From a virus, in the IMG/VR virus record IMGVR_UViG_3300027969_000061, positions 44,198 through 108,197 of that record: a stretch of 64,000 nt of DNA, one strand, 5' to 3'. The notes beneath the pieces are model-generated. The model made no database searches. It had not been told where the DNA came from and was given only the letters and a program-made list of their open reading frames with translations. The position numbers and the translations under genes were made by a program. Of the stretch, positions 27,910-43,366 are shown piece by piece. Numbering within the stretch: position 1 is the first letter of the stretch; every line of letters begins with the position of its first letter.

Positions 27910-27912
27910 TAA

Positions 27913-28605: not shown

Positions 28606-28934
28606 TGGCCAATACATTTACAAGTTATCTCAATAAGAATATTCCAACTACGGGTGCAACTGTTGTAACCGCTTCTGGTGGAACACAGACTACAGTTATT
28701 GGCCTATCTTGTGCAAACATTTCTACTGCAAATACTATTACTGCTGATGTTTATATTACTCGTTCAGCAGTAGATTATTATTTGGTTAAAGGTGCTACAG
28801 TACCTATTGGTGGTTCTCTTGTGGTAGTTGGCGGAGACCAAAAGGTTGTTCTTGTTGCTGGCGATGCACTCAAAGTGGTGTCATCTGCAAACACTTCAAT
28901 GGATGTTGTTACATCTGCACTAGTCATCTCATAA
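28605..28934 (+). CDS. Small virion-associated beta protein (SYLNKNIPTTGATVV family)
   Basis: 109 residues. The pattern (TGATVVTASGGTQTTVIGLS, DVYITRSAVDYYLVKG, VIGGSL/VVGGDQKVVLVAGD, SMDVVTSALVIS) matches a family of short beta-sandwich proteins common in marine phage genomes, usually near structural genes and without a proven role; virion decoration or fibre support is likely. The start (TAATG) overlaps the endonuclease stop, so the endonuclease is transcriptionally and translationally embedded in this array. Confidence 0.65.
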   Translation: MANTFTSYLNKNIPTTGATVVTASGGTQTTVIGLSCANISTANTITADVYITRSAVDYYLVKGATVPIGGSLVVVGGDQKVVLVAGDALKVVSSANTSMDVVTSALVIS

Positions 28935-28943
28935 GGATAATTA

Positions 28944-30248
28944 ATGTCTTTTATTGGGAATAGTTTTACTAATCAAACATTTGTTCCACAAGTAGATTAC
29001 TTTAATGGTAATGCCTCTAATACTGCATTTACTTTAAGTAGAAATGTTGCCTCAGCTGCTGATGTTCAAGTGGTTATCGAAAACGTACCACAGAATCCAT
29101 CATCAGCATTTACAGTATCAGGTAATGTAATCACATTTACTTCTGCACCACCTAGTGGCACAAACAACATCTATGTTCGTTACACAAGTCCAACAACCAA
29201 TTTGGTTAAGCCGGCTCCTGGTACAGTAAGTAATACAGAAATTAGTTCTGCATTTTCTTTGTGGAATTTAAGTGGTGCTGATATTAATTATACAGCAGGT
29301 AATGTGGGGATTGGTACTGCTAGTCCGACAGGAAAGTTAAATGTTGTTCAAAACGGAACTCCTATTATTTCTCAATTTAATAGGACTGATGCTGGAACAG
29401 GACTTGTTATAGCTGCAGATTCTTCTGGACCATATTTTAGACCCACAACAAGTAGTGCAATTCGCTGGAATAATTCAGGTAATACAGTAGAATATATGCG
29501 AATTGATTCTAATGGTAATATTGGTATTGGTGCTACTAGTCCTTGGTCACAAGTTTCAATGTTAACGCCAGCTGGAGGAACAGACGGATATTTTGGTGTT
29601 AAAGACACTACTTATGGTGGTGATGTTCGTTTTGGCAAAGCAAGTGGTATTAACAATAATGCAATTGCAGGAGTTTGGTCAAATAACGAATTTCTGTTTT
29701 ACACCAACGGCACAGAACGGATGCGTATTAGTTCTGGTGGTAATTTTCTTGTTGGCGGCACAACACCAATAGGAACAGATGGAAACTTATTAGCAAGCGC
29801 TGATTACACATCAACTTATAGAAGCACAGGAACTTCTGGTGCTTATATTCATGCTTTTGCATCTGATATAGGTGGAACAAGAACAGTTAAATATGCCGTT
29901 TATGCTAACGGAACTGTAGGCGCAGTATCAGACCAAAACTTTAAAAAGAATATTGAACCAGCTAGAAATTACCTTGCTGATTTAATGAATATTGAAGTTG
30001 TTAAATACAACTGGAAATCAGATGAAGAAAATGCACCTAAAGAATTAGGTTACATTGCTCAACAAGTAGAAACTGTTTTTGCTGGAATGGTTGATGAGCA
30101 AACATATAAAGATGGTAATGGCGAAGAAGTAACACAAAAAATGTTGAAGAAAGAAGTGTTTGTGCCCATGCTTCTCAAAGCAATACAAGAACAACAAGCA
30201 ATTATAGAAGATTTAAAATCTCGTATTGAAGTATTGGAGGCCAAATAA
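28944..30248 (+). CDS. Fibre with VGIGTASP module and S74 chaperone
   Basis: 434 residues. Residues 1-85 are an N-terminal domain (MSFIGNSFTNQTFVPQVDYF, SGTNNIYVRYTSP) shared with 31352. Shaft and tip modules follow (NVGIGTASPTGKLNVV, GNIGIGATSPWSQVSM and a NGTERMRISSGG). Residues 329-434 are an S74 chaperone: SDQNFKKNIEPARNYL, YIAQQVETVF, FVPMLLKAIQEQQAI and a coiled-coil end. AAGGATAATTA precedes the start. The stop overlaps the following ATG. Confidence 0.82.
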   Translation: MSFIGNSFTNQTFVPQVDYFNGNASNTAFTLSRNVASAADVQVVIENVPQNPSSAFTVSGNVITFTSAPPSGTNNIYVRYTSPTTNLVKPAPGTVSNTEISSAFSLWNLSGADINYTAGNVGIGTASPTGKLNVVQNGTPIISQFNRTDAGTGLVIAADSSGPYFRPTTSSAIRWNNSGNTVEYMRIDSNGNIGIGATSPWSQVSMLTPAGGTDGYFGVKDTTYGGDVRFGKASGINNNAIAGVWSNNEFLFYTNGTERMRISSGGNFLVGGTTPIGTDGNLLASADYTSTYRSTGTSGAYIHAFASDIGGTRTVKYAVYANGTVGAVSDQNFKKNIEPARNYLADLMNIEVVKYNWKSDEENAPKELGYIAQQVETVFAGMVDEQTYKDGNGEEVTQKMLKKEVFVPMLLKAIQEQQAIIEDLKSRIEVLEAK

Positions 30249-31342
30249 TGGCAATCTCAAAAATAACTGCCAACTCTTTAGATAATGGTGGAGGTTCAGT
30301 TGCCACCAATACTGCGGTTGGCCAAGGAACTTTAAACTCAAATAGTTCTGGGGGTTTTAATACAGCAATGGGTTATCAAGCTGCATATAATACCACAGGT
30401 TCAAACAATACTGCAATTGGTTATCAATCACTCGTTTCAAATACCACCGCAGGAGGTAGCACTGCTGTAGGATACAGAGCACTATATTCTGCAAATAGAA
30501 CTGATGATGTAAATGGATATAACACGGCGGTTGGATACACCGCTGGGTATTCTCAAGCTACGGGACAGTTCAATGTATTTATTGGTAGAGATTGCGGGTA
30601 TTCTGCAACTGGCTCTGAAAACACTTTTGTTGGGCATACATCAGGTTACTACACAACTGGAAGCTCCAACACTTTTATTGGAAAACAAGCAGGTTATCTA
30701 GTAACAACAGGTTATAACCAAGTATTTCTTGGGAGTTTTAGTGGAAACCAAAATACATTAGATATGCGGACAGCAAGCAATACTATTGTATTGTCTGATG
30801 GTGGTGGGGTTCCAAGAGCGTGGTATCAATCCGCCAACTTTATTATTTCTCCAGTTTCTCCAACAGGTATTCAATATACTGCTGACAATGCACAATTTTA
30901 TCCTTATCCAGATAACACAGCTAAATTAGGTTATCCATCATATCGATGGACTGTTGTGTATGCTGTATCAGGAACAATTAATACTTCTGATGCCAATCAA
31001 AAACAGCAAATTCGTAGTCTTGACGAAAAAGAAAAAGCAGTGGCTACACGCATTAAAGGTTTAATTAAAGCGTTTAAATGGAATGATTCAGTTGCTGAAA
31101 AAGGCGATGGTGCTCGTATCCACGTTGGTGTAATTGCACAAGATGTTCAATCTGCGTTTATTGCAGAAGGTTTAGACCCCAGCCATTATGGTATGTTCTG
31201 TTCTGATACTTGGTATGAAGTTGATGGTAAAGCTGGAAAAGCATCCGATCCACACACAGCCGACACAGAAGGTGCGGTTGAAGTTACGCAACTTGGTGTT
31301 CGTTATGACCAACTTTTAGCTTTTGTGATATCGGCTCTATAA
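30248..31342 (+). CDS. YadA-head-like fibre with S74 chaperone
   Basis: 364 residues. Residues about 20-170 are tandem 14-15 residue repeats with the signature NTAxGYxA/NTFIGxxAG (for example NTAMGYQAAYN, NTAIGYQSL, STAVGYRALY, NTFVGHTSGYY, NTFIGKQAGYL). This resembles the left-handed beta-roll of trimeric-autotransporter adhesin heads. A short beta segment is followed by residues 246-364, an S74 chaperone (TSDANQKQQIRSLDEKEK, VGVIAQDVQSAFIAEG, LGVRYDQLLAFVISAL). It makes a trimeric adhesin with a self-folding C-terminus. Confidence 0.85.
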   Translation: MAISKITANSLDNGGGSVATNTAVGQGTLNSNSSGGFNTAMGYQAAYNTTGSNNTAIGYQSLVSNTTAGGSTAVGYRALYSANRTDDVNGYNTAVGYTAGYSQATGQFNVFIGRDCGYSATGSENTFVGHTSGYYTTGSSNTFIGKQAGYLVTTGYNQVFLGSFSGNQNTLDMRTASNTIVLSDGGGVPRAWYQSANFIISPVSPTGIQYTADNAQFYPYPDNTAKLGYPSYRWTVVYAVSGTINTSDANQKQQIRSLDEKEKAVATRIKGLIKAFKWNDSVAEKGDGARIHVGVIAQDVQSAFIAEGLDPSHYGMFCSDTWYEVDGKAGKASDPHTADTEGAVEVTQLGVRYDQLLAFVISAL

Positions 31343-31351
31343 GGATAATTA

Positions 31352-32353
31352 ATGTCATACATTGGAAATAGTCCTACACAATCAGCATTTGTCACCGATT
31401 TATTTAACGGTACCGGTAGCACGACTGCATTTACCATGTCGGTCTCACCAGCTAATCCTGCCTCCATACTTGTTTCTGTATCTGGTGTTCTACAATCTCC
31501 TGATACATATTCTATTTCAGGACAAACACTCAACTTCTCAGCGGCACCACCAAGTGCCACAGGAAATATTTCTGTAAGATATTTGGGAATACCTGCATCA
31601 GGTGTTACCACTACCGCATACAGAACACTTACCGAATTTACTGCAACGGCTGGTCAAACCACATTTACTCCACCAAGTTACACAGTAGGTTTTATATCAG
31701 TATACAGAAACGGTGTCATGTTGGGTTCAGCAGACTTTACTGCGACAAACGGAACTTCTGTGGTGTTGGCAAGCGGTGCAACTGCTGGTGATTTAGTTGT
31801 TACAGAATCATTCTATGTTAGCTCAGTATTAAATGCAATACCAAATACAGCAAATGCAGTTAATAACTTATTGATTTCTGATGGTGCTATTAGTCAAACT
31901 AAAGTTGCAACTGGTGTGGCAGGAACAGGACCAGCATTTAGTGCTTATAATTCTGTTAATCAAACAAGTATTTCTAATGCTACATGGACTAAAGTAACAT
32001 TAGATACAGAAGAATTTGATACAAATAGTAATTTTGCTTCTAGTCGTTTTACTCCAACTGTTGCTGGTTATTATCAAATTAATGGTGAATTAGACACATA
32101 TGGAACAAGTTTAAATTATTCATTAATTGCTATATACAAAAATGGTTCAATTTATAAACGTGGAAGTGGTTTAGGTAATTACACAACCTATGAATTTTAT
32201 ACAAGCATTTCGTCTATCGTTTATTTAAATGGTACAACCGATTATGTGGAACTATACGGATATTTAAATTCATCTTCTGCTGGAAGTAATATTTTTTATT
32301 CGGGTAATACACAAACTGGTTATTTCAATGGCGCACTAGTGAGGGCCGCATAA
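31352..32353 (+). CDS. Fibre with C-terminal C1q-like jelly roll
   Basis: 333 residues. N-terminal domain (1-85, MSYIGNSPTQSAFVTDLFNG) shared with 28944. Then TATAGQTTFTPPSYTVGFIS (about 90-150), a typical fibre domain. C-terminal about 140 residues are C1q-like: GPAFSAYNSVNQTSI, DTEEFDTNSNFASSRFTPT-VAGYY, a central strand (IAIYKNGS), then VYLNGTTDYVELYGY and the end GYFNGALVRAA. C1q/TNF-like jelly rolls form compact trimers at fibre tips. The stop overlaps the next start (TAATG). First gene of a three-gene cassette repeated twice more downstream. Confidence 0.8.
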   Translation: MSYIGNSPTQSAFVTDLFNGTGSTTAFTMSVSPANPASILVSVSGVLQSPDTYSISGQTLNFSAAPPSATGNISVRYLGIPASGVTTTAYRTLTEFTATAGQTTFTPPSYTVGFISVYRNGVMLGSADFTATNGTSVVLASGATAGDLVVTESFYVSSVLNAIPNTANAVNNLLISDGAISQTKVATGVAGTGPAFSAYNSVNQTSISNATWTKVTLDTEEFDTNSNFASSRFTPTVAGYYQINGELDTYGTSLNYSLIAIYKNGSIYKRGSGLGNYTTYEFYTSISSIVYLNGTTDYVELYGYLNSSSAGSNIFYSGNTQTGYFNGALVRAA

Positions 32354-33303
32354 TGACACAAGCCGCAATACTAGCTTCTTCAGCATCCTCTGGTGTTTCT
32401 ACTGGATACAAAAATAGAGTTATCAATGGTGGCATGGTTATTAACCAAAGAGGCACAACATCAGGTGTAACTTCAGGTTACTTTGTTGACCGTTGGCAAT
32501 TAAGTGGTTGTAGCACATCAAGTGTTTTAACTTCTAGTCTACCTACAGGATTTAGTAAAGGTATTAGTATTACTGCCACTTCAGGTAATCCAATTGCTAT
32601 TCATAAAATTGAAGCGGCAAATTGTTCTGATTTAAGTGGTCAAAGTGTTACGCTTAGTTTCTATGCACAGAATATTTCAAATGCCACCACATTATACGCA
32701 TCATTGGCATATGCAACTGCATCAGATAATTTTGGTGGCACAACAACCATTTCAGAACAAAATTTAGGAACACTAACGGGTTCATGGGTTAGATATACAT
32801 ACACATGGAATAATTTACCAAGTGGTGTGCTTAACGGACTGTCAATCAATATTCTTTGTGGTGGTTCTGGAACATTCACCATGGGCATTACTGGTGTCCA
32901 GCTGGAAGTTGGAACCACGACAACAAATTTTGAATACCGTGATTACGGAAATGAATTGAGAATGTGCCAAAGGTATGCACAAAGATTTGGCGGTGATGTT
33001 GCTTATTCGGCAATAGGATTTGGCTTTGGTGATTCAGCTAATGGATGGGTAGATGCACAAGTCACACCACCAACAGTGATGAGAACTGTTCCTTCAGTAA
33101 CATCAAGTGGAAGTTTTAGAGTAGTACCACCTGATAATACAAGTGGTTTAGCTGTTACTGGAATTTCAATAAATGGTAGCACAGCAAATTCAAAACTATT
33201 TTATATAATTTGCACGGCATCAAGCATTACTGGTTTTAGAGGTTATGTTTTAAGGGCGGACAATTCAACTTCTGCTTATATTCTTTTTTCTGCGGAGTTA
33301 TAA
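32353..33303 (+). CDS. RIINGAM-type fibre protein
   Basis: 316 residues. Landmarks: YKNRVINGGMVINQRGTTSG near the start, FVDRWQ, a carbohydrate-binding-like beta domain, GVQLEVGTTTTNFEYRDYG, NELRMCQRYAQRF and the ending YILFSAEL. The same landmarks define the genes at 37025 and 40202. The family is widespread in phage fibres and the middle domain resembles carbohydrate-binding modules (inference from pattern). Translation is coupled to the C1q-like gene before it. The following gene begins immediately after its stop. Confidence 0.75.
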   Translation: MTQAAILASSASSGVSTGYKNRVINGGMVINQRGTTSGVTSGYFVDRWQLSGCSTSSVLTSSLPTGFSKGISITATSGNPIAIHKIEAANCSDLSGQSVTLSFYAQNISNATTLYASLAYATASDNFGGTTTISEQNLGTLTGSWVRYTYTWNNLPSGVLNGLSINILCGGSGTFTMGITGVQLEVGTTTTNFEYRDYGNELRMCQRYAQRFGGDVAYSAIGFGFGDSANGWVDAQVTPPTVMRTVPSVTSSGSFRVVPPDNTSGLAVTGISINGSTANSKLFYIICTASSITGFRGYVLRADNSTSAYILFSAEL

Positions 33304-33465
33304 ATGTATAAATTAGGACAAACAAGCCCATTAACTAATGAACCAATTTGCATATATAAAACTGATAGCAATTTATCTATTCCATTATGTGCCGACAACA
33401 CAGACTACCAAGCCTACCTTGCATGGGTAGCAGAAGGCAATACTCCTTTACCAGCGGACGAATAA
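33304..33465 (+). CDS. Small DNTDYQ-family protein
   Basis: 53 residues, starting on the base after the preceding stop. Signature: C-terminal CADNTDYQAYLAWVAEGN and the end PLPADE. Close paralogues of 55 and 53 residues lie at 38127 and 41290. All three immediately follow a RIINGAM-type fibre that itself follows a C1q-like gene. The constant pairing suggests a specific partner, for example an assembly chaperone or fibre-tip peptide. The role is not known. Confidence 0.65.
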   Translation: MYKLGQTSPLTNEPICIYKTDSNLSIPLCADNTDYQAYLAWVAEGNTPLPADE

Positions 33466-33469
33466 ATAA

Positions 33470-33676
33470 ATGGCACTCACAAAAATACCAGCAACAATGG
33501 TGGGTAATTCCACCGCAAATACTGCTATGTCAGTTGGTGTTCCAATTATTGAGAACACACAGACTGTTTCATATCCGTATACAATCAGCGCCAACAATTC
33601 AGCAATCTCTGTTGGTCCAATAACACTTTCAGCCAATGTAACAATTGGTTCTGGAAGTAGATGGGTAATCGTATGA
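33470..33676 (+). CDS. Short VGPI-tip protein
   Basis: 68 residues. The first 25 residues (MALTKIPATMVGNSTANTAM) form a linker; the rest (YTISANNSAISVGPITLSANVTIGSGSRWVIV) is the C-terminal module that ends the collagen-like proteins at 18197, 23222, 35872 and 38761. So this is a stand-alone copy of a fibre tip, or a fibre that lost its shaft. Its stop TGA overlaps the next gene's ATG (ATGA), which pins that start. Confidence 0.65.
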   Translation: MALTKIPATMVGNSTANTAMSVGVPIIENTQTVSYPYTISANNSAISVGPITLSANVTIGSGSRWVIV

Positions 33677-34212
33677 CAGCATTAGTAATTCTTGGAGATA
33701 CAAGTGGTTCAGTAACCTTGGCGGCACCAGCGGCTGCAGGTTCAACTACTCTAACTTTGCCTACACAAACCGGCACGGTTGGTCTAAGTGGTCCTGCATT
33801 TTTGGCTTATGGTACTGCTTTGACTAGTTGTGCTAGTGGTGCTTCCGTTAAGGTTAATTTAGCAGCAAAAGATTTTGATACAACAAGTTCATTTAATACC
33901 TCAACATCTCGCTGGACTCCACTTGTTGCTGGGTATTATCTATTAACTGCTTCTATGTATTTTCCAAGTGCGGCATCTGGTAAAAACGGAGAATTATTTT
34001 TTCTAAAAAATGCAGCAACAAGCATAACCAACGGATTAATGAGCACTTATAACGGACAAGGTATGATTTTATGTGCATCAACAATTTGTTATCTTAATGG
34101 TTCTACTGATTATGTTGAATGTTATGTATATCAAGATTCTGGTAGCACTTTAAATATGGGTTCCAATTCTTATGGTTATAACTTTAACGGTTGTTTTTTA
34201 AGAGGTGCATAA
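33673..34212 (+). CDS. C1q-like adhesin protein
   Basis: 179 residues from the ATG at 33673, which overlaps the previous TGA; an ATG at 33661 would run 16 bases into that gene. N-terminal strand segment (VILGDTSGSVTLAAPAAAGS). C-terminal C1q-like domain with KDFDTTSSFNTSTSRWTPLV-AGYY and CYLNGSTDYVECYVY, ending in GYNFNGCFLRGA. Diverged from the other C1q-like copies and with several Cys. The stop overlaps the start of a small XkdW-like gene. Confidence 0.72.
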   Translation: MTALVILGDTSGSVTLAAPAAAGSTTLTLPTQTGTVGLSGPAFLAYGTALTSCASGASVKVNLAAKDFDTTSSFNTSTSRWTPLVAGYYLLTASMYFPSAASGKNGELFFLKNAATSITNGLMSTYNGQGMILCASTICYLNGSTDYVECYVYQDSGSTLNMGSNSYGYNFNGCFLRGA

Positions 34213-34376
34213 TGAGTTTATATGATAAAATTGTTGCACTTTATCCAGAATTAGTTGCTACTGATTTTTCTCCGTCTATGGGTTCAATCAGGTTGCAAGA
34301 TGAAGGTAATGGTGTTTATATTGCCAAATGGGAACACCCAACATTACCTAAACCTACGGATGAACAGTTAGCATGA
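34212..34376 (+). CDS. XkdW-like small protein
   Basis: 54 residues from the ATG at 34212, which overlaps the previous stop (TAATG). Signature: LYDKIVALYPELVATDF, then SIRLQDEGNGVYIAKW-EHPTLPKPTDEQLA. This matches the XkdW-type small proteins found next to phage fibre genes. A longer paralogue lies at 34913. Both directly follow a C1q-like gene. The function is unproven; a fibre-assembly partner is likely. Its stop overlaps the next start (ATGA). Confidence 0.65.
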   Translation: MSLYDKIVALYPELVATDFSPSMGSIRLQDEGNGVYIAKWEHPTLPKPTDEQLA

Positions 34377-34894
34377 CCACAACAATTAACGCAAGTACCT
34401 CTGCCGGTTTAATAATTACTCCTGATACTTCAGGTAATATTCAGTTACAATATAATGGTGTGGCTGCACCAGCATTTAGTGCTTATGTTACAGGAAATCA
34501 AAGTATTTCTTCAGGTACTTTTACAAAAATGCAATGTGGTACAGAAGAATGGGATACAGCTAGTTGTTATGATAACGCAACAAATTATAGGTTTACTCCT
34601 ACTGTTGCCGGATACTATCAATTTAATGGTATGTGGGGTGCGGCTTCAGGATCACCAACAAGAGTTATTATAGCCTTGTATAAAAATGGTAGTGTTGCTA
34701 GATATGGATTAGATTTAGGTATAAGTTCTGCAGGATTCAATAATGGAGCAGGAGATGTGGTTAGTTCCATGTTATATCTAAATGGCACAACCGATTATGT
34801 TGAACTTTATGCATATGCCGCAGGTGGTGCAACAATCCAAGGCGGAAATAGTGCATCTGGTTATTTTCAAGGTTACTTAGCAAGAGCTGTTTAA
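34373..34894 (+). CDS. C1q-like adhesin protein
   Basis: 173 residues. A short N-terminal beta segment (ITPDTSGNIQLQYNG) like that of 25077 leads into a C1q-like domain: AAPAFSAYVTGNQSISSGTF, EEWDTASCYDNATNYRFTPT-VAGYYQFNG, IIALYKNGS, LYLNGTTDYVELYAY and the end GYFQGYLARAV. It belongs to the set of five C1q-like copies. Its start overlaps the preceding TGA. The next gene, 18 bases on, is a longer XkdW-like paralogue, giving a second C1q/XkdW pair. Confidence 0.78.
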   Translation: MTTTINASTSAGLIITPDTSGNIQLQYNGVAAPAFSAYVTGNQSISSGTFTKMQCGTEEWDTASCYDNATNYRFTPTVAGYYQFNGMWGAASGSPTRVIIALYKNGSVARYGLDLGISSAGFNNGAGDVVSSMLYLNGTTDYVELYAYAAGGATIQGGNSASGYFQGYLARAV

Positions 34895-34912
34895 TATTTA
34901 AAAGGAAACAAA

Positions 34913-35095
34913 ATGAAAACTTTATACGAAAAAATTCTATCAATCTATCCAGAACTAACTGATGCTGATTTTATGCCAGGTCGTGGCACAATTATGCTTC
35001 AGAATGATTCTGACGGCCGTGGTGATTACATCAGAGAATGGAATCATGCAACATTGGCAGAACCAACAGAAGAACAATTAGCGAGCGCTGAATAA
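34913..35095 (+). CDS. XkdW-like small protein (paralogue)
   Basis: 60 residues. Signature: LYEKILSIYPELTDADFMPG, IMLQNDSDGRGDYIREWNHA and TEEQLASAE. It is a clear paralogue of the 54-residue protein at 34212. A ribosome-binding AAAAGGAAAC lies just upstream. It follows a C1q-like gene, as does the other copy. The stop overlaps the next start (TAATG). Confidence 0.65.
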   Translation: MKTLYEKILSIYPELTDADFMPGRGTIMLQNDSDGRGDYIREWNHATLAEPTEEQLASAE

Positions 35096-35541
35096 TGTCT
35101 ATTGTATTGAACGGTACTAATAATCAAATTACTGGAGTACCGGGATTGGTATTGCAAGTGGTTAGTTCTACTTTTACTTCTTCGTTTTCTTCTTCATCGG
35201 GAAGTTTTGTTTCTATAGGATTAACCGCATCTATTACACCAACAAGTTCTTCAAGTAAAATTTTGATATTAATAGATTCGTTTGTTCGTAGTGATGCTGC
35301 AAATTTTGTTGATGCAACAATTTATAAAAATTCCACTAATTTAGGTGGAGCATATGGTTTAAAAAATGCTTATGTAAACGCAGCATTTGTTATGCCAATT
35401 CCGTTTACTTATTATGATTCACCAGCAACAACTTCTTCAACTTCTTATACATTGTATATGCGGACTGAAAATGCCGCCACTTTTTACTTAGAAGCTGCTG
35501 GTAGAGTTTCAACAATCACACTTATGGAAATAGCAGCTTAA
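35095..35541 (+). CDS. Fibre/adhesin beta protein, 'STS-TGL-ITP' family
   Basis: 148 residues. Family landmarks: LVLQVVSSTFTSSFSSSSGS, IGLTASITPTSSSSKILIL, YKNS, YYDSPATTSSTSYTLYM and the end STITLMEIAA. Family members at 20573, 38291 and 39142. It has a Ser-rich first half that is beta-patterned, with no catalytic residues visible. It is presumably a short adhesin. AAAAGGAAAC precedes the next gene. Confidence 0.65.
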   Translation: MSIVLNGTNNQITGVPGLVLQVVSSTFTSSFSSSSGSFVSIGLTASITPTSSSSKILILIDSFVRSDAANFVDATIYKNSTNLGGAYGLKNAYVNAAFVMPIPFTYYDSPATTSSTSYTLYMRTENAATFYLEAAGRVSTITLMEIAA

Positions 35542-35561
35542 TTTAACAAAAAGGAAACAAA

Positions 35562-35858
35562 ATGAGAATCTCTAAAATTGATGCAATCTTATCTCTATCA
35601 CCTGGTGCTGAAGTAGTAGTGCGTGGTGAAGAAGTAGAATGGATTAATCCTTCTACTGCACCTGTAACTGAAGCACAAATTGCTGCTGAGTTGGTAAGAC
35701 TCCAAGCAGCCTACGAAGCAAAACAATATCAGCGTGACCGTGCTGGTGAATATCCAGCAATTGGTGACCAATTGGATGCTTTGTTCCATGCAGGAGTATT
35801 CCCTGAAGCCATGGCAGAAATCATTCAGGCCGTCAAAGATAAATACCCTAAATCATAA
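35562..35858 (+). CDS. Fibre-associated protein with YP-x-IGDQLD motif
   Basis: 98 residues. YQRDRAGEYPAIGDQLDALF (about residues 62-81) and the end KDKYPKS match the paralogue at 24737 (RNRAKKYPAIADQLDMLW). The N-terminal half is a small domain containing SLSPGAEVVVRGEEVEWINP, and the middle is helical and charged. This resembles small proteins next to phage fibre genes, possibly assembly chaperones; the substrate would be an adjacent fibre. AAGGAAAC precedes the start. Confidence 0.55.
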   Translation: MRISKIDAILSLSPGAEVVVRGEEVEWINPSTAPVTEAQIAAELVRLQAAYEAKQYQRDRAGEYPAIGDQLDALFHAGVFPEAMAEIIQAVKDKYPKS

Positions 35859-35871
35859 TTTAGGATAATCA

Positions 35872-36495
35872 ATGCAATATCAAAGTTTCGTTGCTGGGTC
35901 AGGAATATCAGGTGCTACCGGTCCAACCGGTGCTACTGGTGTCATTGCACCGTGGACAAGAATCTCCGCAAATACAAGTGCTTCGGCTAATACACAGTAT
36001 CTAGCCAACACAGCAACTGGTGCCTTCACTCTAACATTACCAGGTACACCATCAGTTGGTGTTATGGTAGTGATTGCTGATGATTATAACTTTGGTGCAA
36101 ACAATCTTTTTGTTGCAAGAAATGGTTCTACTATTCAAGGCATTGCTGATGACTTAGGTATTAACATCAGCAACTCATTGACAACATTGATTTATGATGG
36201 TACTACTTGGAGAGTTTCTACAAATGCTGGACCACAAGGTGCAACTGGTGCCACAGGTCCTACAGGAACTTCTGGTACCAACGGTGCCACAGGTGCTACC
36301 GGTTTAGGTGCTACTGGTGCTACTGGTGCCAGTTTGTTTGCTGATTCCAATAATGTTATTTTTTTAAATAATACGTTGATTACTTCTAACACAACATTGC
36401 AACCAGGTCGTGGTGCATTTTCTGTTGGACCAATCTCTGTTAATACAGGTGTTCAACTTATTGTTTCATCTAACACAAGGTATGTGGTACTATGA
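35872..36495 (+). CDS. Collagen-like fibre with beta domain and VGPI tip
   Basis: 207 residues. Anchor (1-13, [16 protein letters not shown]), short collagen-like segment (14-24), beta domain (27-119, with TQYLANTATG and [10 protein letters not shown]), collagen-like tract (121-153, with GAT and GPT triplets) and C-terminal module (170-207, FSVGPISVNTGVQLIVSS). A compact form of the same design as 18197 and 23222 but with the second type of N-terminal anchor. The stop (TGA) overlaps the next gene's ATG. Confidence 0.82.
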   Translation: MQYQSFVAGSGISGATGPTGATGVIAPWTRISANTSASANTQYLANTATGAFTLTLPGTPSVGVMVVIADDYNFGANNLFVARNGSTIQGIADDLGINISNSLTTLIYDGTTWRVSTNAGPQGATGATGPTGTSGTNGATGATGLGATGATGASLFADSNNVIFLNNTLITSNTTLQPGRGAFSVGPISVNTGVQLIVSSNTRYVVL

Positions 36496-37025
36496 GTAAT
36501 ATTATTCTAGGCTCAGGACCTTCAGGTTCAGGTTCATTAACCTTACAAGCACCGAATACAAATAGTAATCAGACAGTTAATTTTCCTGATGCTTCTGGCA
36601 TACCCATGGTTAGTGGTAATATGCCAGCGTTTTATGCTTATCAAAATTCAGCACAATCAATTCCAAATGTAACTTGGACTAAAGTATTGTTTCAAGTAGA
36701 AGAATTTGATACTAATAGTAATTTTGCTTCAAGCCGTTTTACTCCTACTGTTGCTGGTTATTACCAACTTACTTCTCAATTGCAATATACAACTATTGCT
36801 GGTGGAAGAAATATGTTTGTAATATATAAAAATGGTGCTGAGTATAGACACCTACAGGATATGCAAACAAGTTACACTATTGGATTAATGGGAACTTCAT
36901 TAGTTTATGCAAATGGTTCATCAGACTATTTTGAAATTTATATTTATACGTCAACTGGTGCATACACATTAGATAATAATTCAGCAATAACATATTTTAG
37001 CGGTTGTTTAGTGAGGGCTGCATAA
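36492..37025 (+). CDS. C1q-like adhesin protein
   Basis: 177 residues. N-terminal segment GSGSLTLQAPNTNSNQTVNF, then GIPMVSGNMPAFYAY, shared in pattern with 39651. C1q-like core: TWTKVLFQVEEFDTNSNFAS (34 of the usual strand positions match by eye is not claimed; the signature EEFDTNSNFASSRFTPT is identical to that in 31352), VAGYYQLTS, FVIYKNGAE and the end YFSGCLVRAA. Coupled to its neighbours on both sides (ATGA before, TAATG after). First gene of the second cassette copy. Confidence 0.8.
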   Translation: MSNIILGSGPSGSGSLTLQAPNTNSNQTVNFPDASGIPMVSGNMPAFYAYQNSAQSIPNVTWTKVLFQVEEFDTNSNFASSRFTPTVAGYYQLTSQLQYTTIAGGRNMFVIYKNGAEYRHLQDMQTSYTIGLMGTSLVYANGSSDYFEIYIYTSTGAYTLDNNSAITYFSGCLVRAA

Positions 37026-38125
37026 TGCCATACGGTTCAATCTCAGTAGACCAAATTAATAACACCACAGGATATTCTCTTGGTGCTGGTAACGCTTCTA
37101 TTATGAAGAATCGCATTATCAATGGTGCGATGGTTATTGACCAAAGAAATGCTGGTGCTAGTGTTACGCCAGCAAATAACACTTACACTTTAGACCGATG
37201 GAATACTTATCAAAGCACTTCTTCTGCTTATAGTGTTCAACAAAATGCTGGTTCTGTAACACCACCATTAGGGTTTACAAACTATCTTGGCGTAACTTCT
37301 TTAGCAGCAACTTCATTATCTGCTGGAAGTTATTTTATGCTTACTCAAATTATTGAAGGATTTAATGTTGCTGATTTAGGTTGGGGAAGTGCTAACGCCA
37401 AAACTATAACATTATCTTTTTGGGTGCGTAGTTCTTTAACTGGAACATTTGGCGGATCTTTACAAAATGGTGGAACAAGAAGCTACCCATTTACTTACAC
37501 AATTTCTGCCGCAAATACTTGGGAACAAAAATCAATTACTGTTGCAGGTGATACAAGTGGAACTTGGGCAACAGATAATACTGCTGGCATTAAATTACGA
37601 ATTGGTCTTGGTGTTGGCACAACCGCAAGCACAACTGCTGGCGCATGGGCAACCGGCGATTACTATTCAGCAACAGGTGCCACTTCAATAGTAGGAACAA
37701 ACGGTGCCACATTCTATATTACTGGAGTTCAGTTGGAAGTTGGAAGTGTGGCCACAGGTTATGAATATGAAAATATTGCTCAAACTTATTCAAAATGCCA
37801 ACGCTATTACACAGTTTTGTTATCAGGCAACGATAAGAGTTTATGCCTTGCAACTTGGTATAACACTTCAGAATGGGATGCAGTAGTATTTTTTCCAACG
37901 ATGCGGTCAGCACCTACAGCATCATCAACAACAGTATCTTCTGGATATTATTTTGATAAATTAGGTGGCAATATTACTTTTGACAATATTAGTGGTGTTT
38001 TTGGTGCTGGCTTAAATGTTGCACAACCATACAAAGTGGCATTAAGTGGCGGTGTTGCTGGTTATTGCGGAAGCATTAGAACTTTAAATGCTTCTTGTTT
38101 TATTGCTTTAAGTGCGGAGTTATAA
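37025..38125 (+). CDS. RIINGAM-type fibre protein
   Basis: 366 residues from the ATG at 37025, which overlaps the previous stop; the in-frame TTG at 37004 would lie inside that gene. Landmarks: MKNRIINGAMVIDQRNAGAS, LDRWNTYQ, LGWGSANAKTITLSFWVRSS, QKSITVAGDTSGTWATDNTA, GVQLEVGSVATGYEYENIA, a KCQRYYTVL and the end CFIALSAEL. It is very similar in plan to 40202 (LGWGTANAKSVTLSFWVQSS). Probably a receptor-binding fibre. The next gene, the DNTDYQ-family partner, begins 2 bases after its stop. Confidence 0.78.
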   Translation: MPYGSISVDQINNTTGYSLGAGNASIMKNRIINGAMVIDQRNAGASVTPANNTYTLDRWNTYQSTSSAYSVQQNAGSVTPPLGFTNYLGVTSLAATSLSAGSYFMLTQIIEGFNVADLGWGSANAKTITLSFWVRSSLTGTFGGSLQNGGTRSYPFTYTISAANTWEQKSITVAGDTSGTWATDNTAGIKLRIGLGVGTTASTTAGAWATGDYYSATGATSIVGTNGATFYITGVQLEVGSVATGYEYENIAQTYSKCQRYYTVLLSGNDKSLCLATWYNTSEWDAVVFFPTMRSAPTASSTTVSSGYYFDKLGGNITFDNISGVFGAGLNVAQPYKVALSGGVAGYCGSIRTLNASCFIALSAEL

Positions 38126-38126
38126 A

Positions 38127-38294
38127 ATGACCTATCAATTATCAAATTTTCGTGGCAAATTAGCTTGCATTGTAAAAACTGATGGTAACATGAAACATTT
38201 TATTCCTTTATCGAAAGATAACACCGATTACCAAGAATATCTAAAATGGGTTGCAGAAGGTAACACACCAGAACCAGCAGAAGGCACAGAATGA
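38127..38294 (+). CDS. Small DNTDYQ-family protein
   Basis: 55 residues from the ATG at 38127; an earlier in-frame codon would overlap the fibre gene. Signature: PLSKDNTDYQEYLKWVAEGN and the end TPEPAEGTE. Second of three paralogues (33304, 41290), each immediately 3' of a RIINGAM-type fibre. The N-terminal half (MTYQLSNFRGKLACIVKT) is not conserved in sequence, suggesting it matches a particular fibre. Its stop overlaps the next start (ATGA). Confidence 0.65.
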   Translation: MTYQLSNFRGKLACIVKTDGNMKHFIPLSKDNTDYQEYLKWVAEGNTPEPAEGTE

Positions 38295-38764
38295 CAACGA
38301 CTATTGACGGTAATTCAGGAGTTATATTTCCAAATAACACTACACAAGCTAGTGCTGGTCAAGTGTTGCAGGTGGTTAATGGCACTTATTCAGGCCCCTA
38401 TTTTTCAACAACAAGTACCACTTTTGTATCTACTGGATTAACGGTAACTATTACACCTAAGTTTGTTACAAGTAAAATTTTATTACTTTTACAAGTTGAA
38501 GTTTATAATGATACAGCAAATAAAGGTGGTGATTTAACCATTTATAAAAATGGTGCAAATTTAGCCTCAGGTTTATTAGGAAGAATGTATCCTATTTCTG
38601 GTCAATTAGCTATTAATATTCCTATTAATTATTACGATTCGCCATCAACAACATCAGCAACAACTTATACACTTTATATTAAAACAACAAATGCTGGATA
38701 TGCTTTCAATGCTTTTCAAGATGCTTTTCCATCAACAATTACTGCATTGGAAATAGCAGCATGA
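38291..38764 (+). CDS. Fibre/adhesin beta protein, 'STS-TGL-ITP' family
   Basis: 157 residues. Landmarks: GNSGVIFPNNTTQASAGQVL (near-identical to the opening of 39142), FSTTSTTFVSTGLTVTITPK, YYDSPSTTSATTYTLYI and the end STITALEIAA. It is closely related to 39142, from which it is separated by one collagen-like gene. Coupled to its neighbours by ATGA overlaps on both sides. Confidence 0.68.
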   Translation: MTTTIDGNSGVIFPNNTTQASAGQVLQVVNGTYSGPYFSTTSTTFVSTGLTVTITPKFVTSKILLLLQVEVYNDTANKGGDLTIYKNGANLASGLLGRMYPISGQLAINIPINYYDSPSTTSATTYTLYIKTTNAGYAFNAFQDAFPSTITALEIAA

Positions 38765-39132
38765 CAATATACTTAGGGCAAATTGCTGGTTCTGGAATAT
38801 CTGGTGCAACCGGTCCTACAGGTCCAACTGGACCATCTGGTGCTACTGGTGTATTTCCAACAAGCAGTTCAGCTAACTTAGCAATCACTAATGCCAATAC
38901 ATCAACATCAAATACTACTGGTGCTCTGACTGTTGCAGGTGGTGTAGGTGTTACAGGTAATGTATGGGTAGATACTGTTGTTGTTACGAATGGTTTGATA
39001 CTTAATTCTAACACAATAAATAGAAGTTATACAGTACCAGACAATTACAATGCTGGTTCATTTGGTCCAATCACAGTAGCAAACTCTGCGATTGTTACAG
39101 TACCAAGTGGTTCAATTTGGACCGTGGTTTAA
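38761..39132 (+). CDS. Short collagen-like fibre with VGPI-type tip
   Basis: 123 residues, the shortest collagen-like protein here. Anchor ([16 protein letters not shown]), a collagen-like tract of only about six triplets (14-31), a segment STSNTTGALTVAGGVGVTGN related to the end of 27100, then the C-terminal module (SYTVPDNYNAGSFGPITVAN and the end SGSIWTVV). It lacks the beta domain. It looks like an internal deletion derivative of the longer fibres, or a minimal adhesin. Confidence 0.72.
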   Translation: MTIYLGQIAGSGISGATGPTGPTGPSGATGVFPTSSSANLAITNANTSTSNTTGALTVAGGVGVTGNVWVDTVVVTNGLILNSNTINRSYTVPDNYNAGSFGPITVANSAIVTVPSGSIWTVV

Positions 39133-39141
39133 GGATAAAGA

Positions 39142-39651
39142 ATGACATTCAAAGTTGATGGATCAAACGGATTAACATTTCCAAATAACACTACACAAGC
39201 TAGTGCTGGCCAAGTGTTGCAAGTTGTTCAAGCAGAATATGCCACACAAGTATCTTTATCTTCTATAACATATACAGATACCGGATTATCCGCAACCATT
39301 ACTCCTAAATTTGCAACAAGTAAAATTTTAGTTAATATAAGTCAAAATCTATACATATACAGAGAGTTTGCATTTCAATATGGATATCTTCAACTATTGA
39401 GAAATGGTTCTGTTGCAAAAGATTTTAGATTAGTTATGAATCAAACTGCTGGAAATCCTGCTGGCGGAAGTTATCCTTACCACGACATGAGTGCGGTTGT
39501 TGGATTAAGTTATTTGGATTCACCAGCAAGCACTTCTGCTTTAACATATAAAACACAACAAAAATGTGGAACAACAAGCAATGGCGGAACAATAATTGCT
39601 CAAATTGATAGTGCTCCATCTTTCATTACACTTATGGAGATTGCAGCCTAA
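39142..39651 (+). CDS. Fibre/adhesin beta protein, 'STS-TGL-ITP' family
   Basis: 169 residues. Landmarks: GSNGLTFPNNTTQASAGQVL at the start, YTDTGLSATITPKFATSKIL, LQLLRNGSVAKDF, LSYLDSPASTSALTYKTQQK and the end SFITLMEIAA. Closest relative is 38291. DNA identity at the openings of the two genes is high, so they could recombine with loss of the gene between. AAGGATAAAG precedes the ATG. Confidence 0.68.
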   Translation: MTFKVDGSNGLTFPNNTTQASAGQVLQVVQAEYATQVSLSSITYTDTGLSATITPKFATSKILVNISQNLYIYREFAFQYGYLQLLRNGSVAKDFRLVMNQTAGNPAGGSYPYHDMSAVVGLSYLDSPASTSALTYKTQQKCGTTSNGGTIIAQIDSAPSFITLMEIAA

Positions 39652-40202
39652 TGCCAATTAAATTACAATCTTCTTCTGGTGGTTCAGTTACTTTAGATGT
39701 GCCGGTCACAGCAAGTAACTTTAATGTAACTGTACCTAATGCTTCTGGTACTGCTATGGTTAGCGGTAATATGCCAGCGTTTAGTGCTTATAAAACTTCC
39801 CATCAAAGTTATTCAAATAATACTTGGACAAAAATAACTTACGACACAGAAGAATATGATACCAATAGTAATTTTGCTTCAAGCACTTTTACTCCCACAG
39901 TTGCAGGGTATTATCTGTTTACTGCAAGAAACCAATTTATTGCAGATGGAGTTGCAATGGCTGAAATAAATTCAGCGTTTTTTAAAAATGGCACTATTGC
40001 TAAAACAGGAACTTATAAGTATCAACCAGCGGCACTTACTGCACAATTTGGAAGTAACATTTCTGCTGTAATTTATTGCAACGGTACAACAGATTATGTT
40101 GAATGTTACGGAAGAACTGACGGAAGCACTTTGTATGTTTATGGTGCAGCTGGTGCGGCGCCTTACACATACTTTCAAGGCATTTTAATGAGGGCTGCAT
40201 AA
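39651..40202 (+). CDS. C1q-like adhesin protein
   Basis: 183 residues. N-terminal segment SSSGGSVTLDVPVTASNFNV, then SGTAMVSGNMPAFSAYKTSH. C1q-like core: WTKITYDTEEYDTNSNFASS-TFTPTVAGYYLFTA, a middle strand (INSAFFKNGTI), YCNGTTDYVECYGR and the end YFQGILMRAA. Starts on the last base of the preceding stop (TAATG) and ends on the same overlap with the next. First gene of the third cassette copy. Confidence 0.8.
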   Translation: MPIKLQSSSGGSVTLDVPVTASNFNVTVPNASGTAMVSGNMPAFSAYKTSHQSYSNNTWTKITYDTEEYDTNSNFASSTFTPTVAGYYLFTARNQFIADGVAMAEINSAFFKNGTIAKTGTYKYQPAALTAQFGSNISAVIYCNGTTDYVECYGRTDGSTLYVYGAAGAAPYTYFQGILMRAA

Positions 40203-41290
40203 TGTCGGTACAATACGGCGGAGATAAAATAACATTTGCTGATGGTTCTTCTACATCTAGTGGATATACTTTTAGAAATAGAATCATTAACGGTGCCATG
40301 GTTATAAGCCAATATAACGGCACAAGTAGTGTATCAATAGATAACACTAAAAACCAATACTACATTGACAGATGGGCTATTCAAAACAATACTGGTTCTG
40401 CGGTGTTTTCTTATCAACAAGTTACAACTGCACCAACCGGATTTAACAATAGTTTAAAAATAACTGTTACTACTGCTGATGGTTCTTTAACTTCTACTGC
40501 TAAAGCACAAATTTATCAACCAATTGAAGGTTACAACATTGCCGATTTAGGATGGGGAACTGCCAACGCCAAATCCGTTACCTTGTCATTTTGGGTTCAA
40601 TCTAGTGTAACAGGAACTTTTGGTGGTGCATTGGGCAACAATGCTAATGATAGAAGTTATCCATTTACATATACAATCTCATCAGCAAATACTTGGGAAC
40701 AAAAATCAATTACCATTGCTGGTGATACAACAGGCACTTGGCTAACTACTAATGGTTTAGGCATCAATGTTGATTTTAGTTTAGGTGCTGGAACTTCTCG
40801 TAGTGGAACTGCTGGTACTTGGGGTGGTGCTTGGTACACTTCTGCTACTGGTGCAACTAATTTATTAGCTACAAACGGAGCCACATTCTACATTACTGGT
40901 ATTCAGTTTGAAGTAGGAAGTTCATCAACAACTTTTGAAGCTCGTGATTACGGAAATGAATTAAGAATGTGTCAGCGGTATTATCAGTTATGTAATGGAT
41001 TTCTTGGAACTCCGGGCGCTTCTACTACAATCATGTATACATCTATTCAATACCAAGTTGCAATGAGAGCAAATCCATCTTTAGGACAAACAGGAGTTAT
41101 TAATATGACTGCACCCGGTGTTGATACATGGCAACAATCTAGCACAGGTATAGCAGCTGGAGGCCAAAATACAACAGGAACATGGATTCAATTAAACAAT
41201 TTTTCTGGTTTAACTCAGCATAGACCATATGTCCAGTCCGTTAATTATGCTGGCAATGGATATGTTATTACTTTATCTGCGGAGTTATGA
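40202..41290 (+). CDS. RIINGAM-type fibre protein
   Basis: 362 residues. Landmarks: GYTFRNRIINGAMVISQYNG, IDRWAIQ, LGWGTANAKSVTLSFWVQSS, QKSITIAGDTTGTWLTTNGL, GIQFEVGSSSTTFEARDYGN, ELRMCQRYYQLC and the end VITLSAEL. It is a close paralogue of 37025. TAATG overlaps the C1q-like gene before it and TGATG overlaps the small gene after it, so all three are coupled. Confidence 0.78.
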   Translation: MSVQYGGDKITFADGSSTSSGYTFRNRIINGAMVISQYNGTSSVSIDNTKNQYYIDRWAIQNNTGSAVFSYQQVTTAPTGFNNSLKITVTTADGSLTSTAKAQIYQPIEGYNIADLGWGTANAKSVTLSFWVQSSVTGTFGGALGNNANDRSYPFTYTISSANTWEQKSITIAGDTTGTWLTTNGLGINVDFSLGAGTSRSGTAGTWGGAWYTSATGATNLLATNGATFYITGIQFEVGSSSTTFEARDYGNELRMCQRYYQLCNGFLGTPGASTTIMYTSIQYQVAMRANPSLGQTGVINMTAPGVDTWQQSSTGIAAGGQNTTGTWIQLNNFSGLTQHRPYVQSVNYAGNGYVITLSAEL

Positions 41291-41451
41291 TGATTTATAA
41301 ATTAATGAATGTAATGGGACATGAATCGGTAAGTTTATTTAAAGATACAGAATTTGTAATGAATATTCCATTTGATCCAGATAACACAGATTACCAAAAA
41401 TATCTAAAATGGGTTGCAGAAGGCAACGAACCATTACCAGCGGACGAATAA
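41290..41451 (+). CDS. Small DNTDYQ-family protein
   Basis: 53 residues, starting at 41290 on the last base of the fibre stop (TGATG). Signature: DPDNTDYQKYLKWVAEGNEP and the end LPADE, identical in its last residues to 33304. Third paralogue of this small family and, as in the other two cases, directly downstream of a RIINGAM-type fibre. Confidence 0.65.
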   Translation: MIYKLMNVMGHESVSLFKDTEFVMNIPFDPDNTDYQKYLKWVAEGNEPLPADE

Positions 41452-41454
41452 TAA

Positions 41455-42954
41455 ATGCCAATCTATCAATCAGTTGTTGCGGGTTCAGGAATATCAGGTG
41501 CTACAGGACCTAATGGTGCTACTGGCGTTACAGGACCTACAGGACCAAATGGACCAACAGGCCCAACCGGACCAGCTGGTGCTACCGGTGTAACTGGACC
41601 AACAGGACCAGCTGGTGCTACTGGACCAAATTCAATTGCAGCTGTATCAGACCAATCAAATAGTTCTACAGGATATCTTGCATTACCGGCAGGTACATCA
41701 GGACAAAGACCGGGTAGTTCTGCAAATGGATACACAAGATTAAACACCACCGTTGGTGCAGTAGAATCTTATTTCAATGGTAAATGGCAAGCAATTACAA
41801 CTTTTGCAACGGTACCTAATGCACCAACTGCTGTATCTGCGGTTGCTGGTGATGCTCAAGCTGTAGTATCGTTTACTGCACCAGCAAATAATGGTGGATC
41901 AACAATCACATCTTATACGGCAGTATCTTCTCCAGGTGGATTTACTGCATCAGTTTCACAATCAGGTTCAGGTAGTGTTACTGTAACAGGTTTATCAAAT
42001 GGTACTGCATACACATTTACAGTATTTGCCACAAATGCTATTGGTAGTGGTGCATCAAGTTCTGCAAGTGGTTCAGTAACACCAGTTGCACCAGTAGTTG
42101 TTTCTTCACTTATTATTGCTGGTGGAGGAGGCGGCGGAGCGTATTACCAAGCTGGTGGTGGCGGTGCTGGTGGATATATAAATTCATTTGCTTCAGAAAC
42201 ATCTGGTGGAAACTCAGCTACTGCGGCAAAATCAAGCGTAGCTGTTGGAACTGTTCTTACTGTAACAGTTGGCGGTGGCGGTAATGGTGGATCAGGATTA
42301 GGTTCTGTTGGTTCGCAAGGAAGTTCATCTTCTATTATTGGAACTGGAATGTCGGTGACTGCTACTGGTGGCGGATACGGTTCATCAGGCCAAAATGCAA
42401 GCCCTCCTGCTGGTGGTAATGGTGGTTCTGGTGGTGGTGGTGCTGACTATGTGCCAGGCACAGCATCTGCAGGTGGTTCTGGCATTGCTGGACAAGGATC
42501 AAACGGGTCTGCTCCCCCTCATGCAGGTCCTTCTTATGGTTCTGGAGCTGGTGGTGGTGCAGGACAAATCGGTCAAACTGGAAGTGGTACTGTTGGCGGT
42601 GTAGGCGGTGCAGGTTTATCTTCGTCTATTACCGGAACTGCTACAACTAGAGGCGGTGGAGGTGGCGGGTCTTGTTACTCAGGTTCTGGTGGTCAAGGCG
42701 GTGCTGGTGGTTCTGGTGGTGGCGGTAACGGGTCTACTGGCGCTGGTGGCGCTGGTACGCCTAATACTGGTGGCGGTGGTGGCGGTGGTGAGCGAGGTGG
42801 GGCTGGAACAGGTGGAAATGGTGGTAAAGGAGTTGTTATTATTAGCGTGCCCACTTCGCAATATTCAGGAACATCTAGCGGAGCCTCCACAATTTCTACG
42901 GCTGGGTCAAATACTTACTTAGTATTTAATGACTCTGGAAGTTATACAGTTTAA
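41455..42954 (+). CDS. Adhesin: collagen-like, fibronectin-III and glycine-rich C-terminus
   Basis: 499 residues. Layout: anchor (1-13, [15 protein letters not shown]); collagen-like tract (14-59); a beta module (about 60-118, [20 protein letters not shown] and [11 protein letters not shown]); a fibronectin-III domain (about 121-215, [20 protein letters not shown] and [20 protein letters not shown]); then from about 218 an extremely Gly-rich region ([20 protein letters not shown], many GGxGG runs) ending in [13 protein letters not shown]. Gly-rich ends of this type occur in phage receptor-binding proteins, where polyglycine-II helices carry variable loops (as in the S16 gp38 adhesin); the parallel is by pattern only. 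It is probably the most exposed adhesin of the array. Confidence 0.8.
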
Positions 42955-42967
42955 TTAAGGAAAAAAT

Positions 42968-43366
42968 ATGGCTTATTTTGCAAAATTAAACTCTCAAAAT
43001 ATAGTAGAACAAGTCGTTTCTGTAGGCAATGAAATGCTTTTAGATAACGGCATCGAGTCTGAAGCTAAAGGCATAGAATTTTTACGTGCCCTATATAACG
43101 AACCAAATGCCGTTTGGGTGCAAACATCTTATAACAGCAGAGGCGGTATGCATACTAACGGTGGTATTTCATTCAGAAAAAACTATGCGGCTATTGGTGG
43201 CCTATACGATATAGTTCGTGACGCCTTTATTCCTAGAAAACGATATGGTTCTTGGATATTGAATGAAAATACTTGTTTATGGGAATCTCCGACACCCATG
43301 CCAAATGATGGTAAACAATATATTTGGGATGAAATAACAAAATCTTGGACAGAAATAACAGAATAA
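42968..43366 (+). CDS. Conserved small virion-associated protein
   Basis: 132 residues. Landmarks: MAYFAKLNSQNIVEQVVSVG, SYNSRGGMHTN, SFRKNYAAIGGLYDIVRDAF, GSWILNENTCLWESPTPMPN and the end DEITKSWTEITE. This pattern is common in marine phage genomes near structural genes. Its aromatic-rich core suggests a compact fold; function is unproven. It closes the fibre array and is followed, after a late-promoter-like box, by the neck genes. Confidence 0.65.
   Translation: MAYFAKLNSQNIVEQVVSVGNEMLLDNGIESEAKGIEFLRALYNEPNAVWVQTSYNSRGGMHTNGGISFRKNYAAIGGLYDIVRDAFIPRKRYGSWILNENTCLWESPTPMPNDGKQYIWDEITKSWTEITE

Follow-up and report, generated by a model that had tools for sequence, protein, structure and literature searches.

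Co-transfer of a hypervariable tail-fibre tip with one half of its small neighbouring protein, a probable assembly chaperone, in a T4-like myovirus and related phages

In phage Mu, inversion of the G segment is site-specific, and the entire chaperone gene is included in the inverted DNA. The fibre-gripping part of a fibre chaperone has been described at the structural level in Pam3, in which residues 1-55 of gp25 form non-conserved beta-strands and a short helix that grip the distal fibre, while a helical C-terminal domain trimerises (PMC9608196). Here, we analysed a stretch of 64,000 nucleotides of viral DNA (the window; bases 44198-108197 of the 108,197-base virus record IMGVR_UViG_3300027969_000061), in which a tail-fibre gene of the RIINGAM family (FIB) is directly followed by a gene for a small DNTDYQ partner protein (SML) three times over. 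We refer to FIB plus SML as a duo. The explanation that we consider probable is that FIB provides an adhesin with a variable tip and SML its cognate mini-chaperone, and that the two are exchanged as a cassette.

All three duos lie on the plus strand. FIB copy 1 (32353-33303; 316 aa; phrog_4492 tail fibre), which ends in FSAEL and has its variable tip at approximately 32977-33300, is followed by SML copy 1 (33304-33465; 53 aa; phrog_20370), which consists of a variable N-terminal half (33304-33396) and then the conserved NTDYQ half. FIB copy 2 (37025-38125; 366 aa; tip at approximately 37808-38122) ends in LSAEL and precedes SML copy 2 (38127-38294; 55 aa). FIB copy 3 (40202-41290; 362 aa), predicted to form a CBM4-like beta-sandwich with a beta-rich C-terminal tip at approximately 40982-41287, shares an ATGA overlap at its stop codon with SML copy 3 (41287-41451; 54 aa, or 53 from the ATG at 41290). 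The distances between fibre and SML genes are thus 0, +1, and -4. Against FIB copy 3, the remaining fibres show identities of 50% and 36%; against SML copy 2, the remaining SML proteins show 53% and 62%. Beside each fibre gene, on the same strand, is a C1q-like gene (31352-32353, 36492-37025, and 39651-40202), which overlaps the fibre gene by one base (TAATG) in 3/3 pairs. An initial annotation of the window had listed these nine open reading frames and proposed that they form a repeated three-gene functional unit; on re-reading of the window, all of the frames, positions, and gene contacts were borne out.

The gene order of relatives supports only part of that unit. Eighty viral loci were picked via the fibre family only and 80 via the small family only, profiles were built, and neighbouring genes were read; the set was later widened by 80 more loci. 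SML directly followed FIB for 102/103 SML genes in the SML-anchored set and for 84/89 FIB genes away from a contig edge in the FIB-anchored set; these counts take each contig as independent, even where contigs stem from overlapping populations. The exceptions that were examined comprised a diverged SML (MIYKI..RIDDDGLCR.., with an ATGA overlap), a damaged SML (L060), and a misplaced SML start. In the expanded set, 297/305 SML genes were paired with FIB; the remaining eight comprised five genes at contig edges, one with a misplaced start, and two with an HNH gene in between, such that every SML with readable upstream sequence has FIB before it, twice across the HNH insertion. A single 131 kb contig carries five duos, all paired. 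The duo is also present in cultured phages, namely, Pseudomonas putida phage ErraM, Pelagibacter phages HTVC100P and HTVC115P, Puniceispirillum phage HMO-2011, cyanophages S-2L, S-B43, S-B05, S-B28, S-T4, and P-TIM68 (two duos), Methylophilales phages Venkman (two duos) and Melnitz, and Acidovorax phages ACP17 and Alfacinha1. Some of these fibres are long; that of ErraM (682 aa) has a T7-type N-terminal domain, with the FIB unit at its C terminus.

In contrast, C1q directly preceded FIB in just 14/277 relatives, and the gene after C1q was XkdW in 65/108 cases and FIB in 13/108. Because SML-FIB linkage is near-absolute while C1q is rarely found before FIB, the conserved unit is the FIB-SML duo and not the trio, and the C1q genes are neighbours outside it. 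Within the window, every fibre is followed by SML (3/3), while a fibre follows only three of the five C1q genes. The remaining two, absent from the initial annotation, are located at 33661-34212 and 34373-34894 and are followed by XkdW-type genes at 34212-34376 and 34913-35095, respectively, rather than by a fibre; all four genes are on the plus strand, and both XkdW-type products scored above the cut-off for Pfam PF09636. A three-gene unit would account for the one-base overlap before all three window fibres; that all three fibres have a C1q gene before them has a chance probability of approximately 0.004 (a hand calculation made a posteriori, from order shuffling of about 27 genes). Nevertheless, the gene-order counts and the two C1q-XkdW pairs largely refute it, and we regard a functional trio as very improbable. 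Independent shuffling of the gene families, which the initial annotation had named as grounds for abandoning its proposal, is therefore seen in relatives for C1q, which stands mostly with XkdW, and is not seen for fibre and SML.

The identity of the fibre was indicated by its predicted fold. The AlphaFold model of FIB copy 3 (pLDDT, 90.4) contains a beta-sandwich, a helix at CQRY, and a beta-rich C-terminal domain, and its top match in the PDB is CBM4-2 (4bj0; E value, 1.6e-6; target TM score, 0.71). With a beta-sandwich and conserved RIING and CQRY segments, it belongs to the CBM4-like phage fibres (RIINGAM, phrog_4492), which are of a sugar-binding type. In a comparison of 173 duos, conservation was found in the CBM part and the greatest variation in the final ~100 residues; when the copy 3 tip, which is hypervariable, was searched alone, no relatives were found.

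Despite the variable residues before it, the fibre ends in -EL in 188/190 cases. This end coincides with the gene junction TCTGCGGAGTTATAAATG (D14; plus strand, 33269-33304, 38091-38126, and 41256-41291), where the codons for -AEL contain the GGAG ribosome-binding site of SML. Where SML starts at a gap of 0, the Glu codon GAG and the GGAG sequence are present in 56/56 junctions. Junctions with an ATGA overlap use GAA instead (14/14) and contain GGAG in just 1/14 cases, and the residues are still -EL. The possibility that -EL is merely the ribosome-binding site of SML was rejected, since the residues persist at ATGA overlaps with GAA codons and almost no Shine-Dalgarno sequence. Judged from the sequences, the -EL residues are evidently retained for a reason at the protein level, and their codons are tuned for translational coupling.

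What SML does is suggested by its longer relatives. The AlphaFold model of SML copy 2 (pLDDT, 88.9) has a beta-beta-beta-alpha layout in which the sheet corresponds to the variable N-terminal half and the helix to the conserved NTDYQ half. Stand-alone members belong mainly to PHROG 20370, a family of unknown function. At six viral loci, SML is joined to a further domain in one protein, and Phage_tail_APC (PF16778) scored above cut-off in 5/5 distinct sequences tested; similarly, in gp38 of ErraM, SML is accompanied by a region with matches to PHROG families of tail-fibre assembly. One scan of bacterial genome contigs yielded 15 SML loci, of which 13 lie after a FIB-family gene, and longer bacterial SML proteins carry C-terminal domains that include PF02413 (Caudo_TAP; Cupriavidus) and DUF4376, above cut-off. 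The C-terminal domain of one fused relative (L092) matches the uncharacterised solved protein 2kz6, and a 62-aa SML homologue of Melnitz has been deposited as a "tail assembly chaperone." The fusion to PF16778 and PF02413, seen across phages and prophages, was the decisive clue for regarding SML as a chaperone module. Together with the linkage and the co-variation described below, it makes a chaperone or specificity factor for the preceding fibre, one of the roles suggested in the initial annotation, the best reading. The C-terminal trimerisation domain of PF02413 and PF16778 was found only in the fused relatives and not in the 53- to 55-aa SML proteins of the window; for this reason, SML was not filed as a Tfa member, and by analogy it would correspond to the fibre-gripping N-terminal chaperone module alone.

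Two observations concern the C-terminal side of SML. At 3529-3909 of phage S-T4 (L257), an SML domain carries a C-terminal EYPS..KDKYPK tail otherwise found on proteins such as that encoded at 35562-35858 of the window, and C-terminal modules seem to be common to unrelated N-terminal modules. In addition, a second type of C-terminal half (..LAGAELQDADGNVMTQ..TLP) occurs in place of AEGNTPxPAD, with the N-terminal half staying with the tip (L038, L018, L074, L057, and others).

Each duo was then divided into the CBM part, the tip (CT), the SML N-terminal half (SN), and the SML C-terminal half (SC), with identical duos removed for co-variation tests. In nine pairs with close tips and different CBMs, SN identity averaged 0.84, compared with 0.35 ± 0.04 in shuffled pairs (0/2000 shuffles), whereas SC (0.60; background, 0.64) and CBM (0.56; background, 0.51) remained near background. 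In the control pairs with similar CBMs and different tips, SN identity was 0.41 (n = 99). Conversely, in all ten pairs whose SN cores are nearly identical and whose CBMs differ, tip similarity was above background, and none of them had an unrelated tip beside the SN core. The fibre tip and the SML N-terminal half thus vary together in relatives, a co-variation for which the initial annotation had recommended a search.

The DNA of mosaic pairs shows where this shared segment begins and ends. In L188 and L038, identity is 100% over ~500 bp, from ~80 nt before CQRY to ~440 nt after it (NTDY lies at +423), and falls to 55 to 65% in both flanks. Related cassette shapes, at 75 to 100% identity, were seen in L186/L243, L089/L095 (left border only), L064/L018, and L142/L105. 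Within the window itself, 33237-33469, which covers the last ~22 codons of FIB copy 1 and SML, matches L086 at 88% identity, a match that does not extend to the remainder of the fibre, and 33396-33701, from DNTDYQ on, is 91.5% identical to L196, which places a mosaic junction at 33396. These borders fall at two conserved arms on the plus strand. The left arm (32886-32976, 37717-37807, and 40891-40981) covers the end of the CBM as far as the CQRY codons, forming imperfect direct repeats (D6) that end exactly at CQRY; in L188/L038 and L186/L243, the left border falls at this arm or slightly upstream. The right arm (IP..DNTDYQ..AEGN; 33378-33465, 38201-38288, and 41364-41451), also made of imperfect direct repeats (D7), is the right border of the cassette. 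Chimeric assembly is an unlikely origin for the mosaic pairs, as the borders recur among pairs whose cassettes diverge internally by 0 to 25%, and the contigs originate from different metagenomes.

With respect to the route of exchange, a hypervariable C-terminal segment behind a constant region could also arise within one phage through a diversity-generating retroelement or an invertible segment of the Mu G type, and reversible genome segments that switch a fibre together with its chaperone are known (PMC10579305). However, neither a reverse transcriptase nor a serine recombinase was found in the 108 kb record, which may be incomplete, and no inverted repeats of at least 24 nt were found in 31300-42960. 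We consider such in-phage diversification extremely unlikely; given these negative results, recombination in the conserved arms would be the simplest route. At the border between the two genes, an HNH-type endonuclease gene was found exactly between the FIB stop and the SML start in two copies of one population (L190, ~1210-1666; L195, ~3550-4000), and mobile endonucleases may drive exchange there.

The co-transfer also bears on a different role for SML, namely, that of a permanent tip subunit, or co-adhesin, that remains on the virion and touches the receptor, as does gp38 of T-even phages and S16 or as has been proposed for Mu Tfa. A variable half that travels with a hypervariable tip would be expected of such a subunit, and Mu Tfa has been reported to stay bound to the fibre tip, and V22 gp27 to remain weakly associated (PMC10579305). 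Yet SML has just 53 to 55 residues, half of them strongly conserved, its longer relatives contain assembly-chaperone domains, and mass spectrometry of virions did not detect Pam3 gp25, the nearest analogue of solved structure (PMC9608196). A co-adhesin is therefore unlikely in our judgement, and an assembly chaperone remains the preferred role.

Several observations weigh against a cognate chaperone exchanged together with the tip. A Pfam scan of stand-alone SML gave no match, a PDB sequence search gave no solved chaperone or other match, and a PDB fold search returned chemokine-like and similar matches with E values above 1, which are meaningless. SML is without the trimerisation domain typical of Tfa-type chaperones. 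Synechococcus phage S-N03 (L251; MT162466) has several FIB-type fibres, two of which were read to end in -ADAEL, and no SML was detectable across its 167 kb genome, suggesting that SML is not universally needed and that -EL is not a signal for SML alone; this also weakened the candidate explanation that -EL is merely a recognition tag for SML. The correlation over the whole set is weak (partial Mantel r, ~0.15), which is why close pairs were used, and the strong co-transfer signal comes from approximately ten of these. Finally, SN adjoins the tip in the DNA, between CT and the right arm, such that co-transfer could reflect hitch-hiking.

If so, SML would have a constant role unrelated to the tip, and its N-terminal half would follow the tip solely through its position between the tip and the nearest arm; as the cassette borders coincide with the conserved arms, any exchange would carry it along. 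On the other hand, the fibre/SML stop/start junction (D14) is conserved as well and is a possible border, and 0/10 pairs with near-identical N-terminal halves were split from a related tip. The N-terminal half is itself hypervariable, and the fusion to chaperone domains is independent functional evidence. Hitch-hiking thus appears improbable to us.

In the mechanism that we favour, the fibre gene product would be an adhesin in which a conserved CBM4-like domain is joined to a hypervariable C-terminal tip, and this tip may determine receptor specificity. The next, translationally coupled gene would encode a cognate assembly chaperone of a single domain, matching the fibre-gripping N-terminal domain of Tfa-type chaperones but lacking their trimerisation domain at the C terminus. 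The three-stranded beta half of this protein, which is variable, would bind and fit the tip encoded beside it, and its conserved helical half (NTDYQ..AEGN) would stay constant. New specificities could then arise when the cassette of fibre tip and SML N-terminal half is swapped, between phages or between copies within one phage, by homologous recombination in the two flanking arms (CBM end and NTDYQ). Whether this amounts to a general exchange format for host specificity is, in our estimation, evenly balanced: such a format would be a cassette that crosses a gene border, made up of a tip and the matching half of a one-domain chaperone, with the conserved halves as fixed joints and several independently exchangeable pairs in tandem.

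The chaperone reading would give a testable role to phrog_20370, a family with a wide distribution among aquatic and soil phages, in which its members are usually labelled hypothetical. The succession of a CBM, a variable tip ending in -EL, and then SML offers a simple marker for tail-fibre annotation, and the cassette borders would point to the sites of specificity exchange between phages. For expression of such fibres, the 53-residue neighbour may need to be co-expressed, and the cassette would indicate which of its halves must match.

The virus carrying these duos is a T4-like myovirus, since the portal, sheath, and neck protein families are present in it, as is a major head protein whose nearest counterpart is that of Methylophilales phage Melnitz (67%), with a Stenotrophomonas phage, T4-like cyanophages, and a Pelagibacter phage next in order. 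An 8.1-kb segment (29304-37462) has a 100% match in a contig of the same virus from another metagenome (L171; IMGVR_UViG_3300009184_000563), which argues against mis-assembly of this segment. A megablast search of the region against named phages gave no match. The trio of the initial annotation is a selection out of a bigger array, as 27100-43366 is a crowded run of short adhesin-type genes that includes a collagen-like gene, a peptidase S74 gene, five C1q-like genes, three TNF-like genes of another adhesin type ending in ..EIAA (35095, 38291, and 39142), three FIB, three SML, and two XkdW genes. XkdW-type or similar small genes (34212-34376, 34913-35095, and 35562-35858) sit after the C1q-like and EIAA-type adhesins, and C1q followed by XkdW may be a separate fibre-partner system. 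The array also contains a GIY-YIG homing endonuclease (27913-28605; phrog_314; E value, 6.5e-43), and the protein encoded at 41455-42954 combines collagen-like, FN3, and glycine-rich (PF21722) domains, recalling glycine-rich receptor-binding tips.

Compared with described systems, the duo is most readily set beside Pam3 gp24-gp25 (PDB 7YPX; PMC9608196), with which it would share a fibre-paired chaperone, a variable N-terminal beta domain of ~55 residues whose short helix accompanies the strands in binding the distal fibre, and a modular layout. Unlike SML, gp25 has a helical trimerisation domain of ~100 residues, the gp24 tip is TNF-like and glycine-rich whereas the window fibre combines CBM4 with a variable domain, and SML has no significant sequence or fold match to a solved structure. 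Chaperones of the Tfa type (PF02413, Caudo_TAP) and Phage_tail_APC (PF16778) are likewise modular and encoded right after the fibre, and SML is fused N-terminally to them in relatives; the window SML proteins would differ in being the N-terminal module only. Like SML, XkdW (PF09636) is the product of a small gene that immediately follows an adhesin gene in this region, but profile comparison detected no homology to SML (hhalign probability below 1%), and SML as an XkdW homologue was rejected. In the Alteromonas V22/A5 module (PMC10579305, PMC7289586), a fibre and its cognate chaperone are again common to distantly related phages; however, those chaperones have 195 to 240 aa, and the module is shared as a whole, with no sub-gene cassette across the gene border. 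As in the S-U/S'-U' pairs of the Mu G segment, the C-terminal part of the fibre and its putative chaperone are swapped as a pair. Unlike in Mu, neither an invertase nor inverted repeats were found within the limits given above, and the window cassette has its borders at conserved arms, with the right border falling within the small gene itself.

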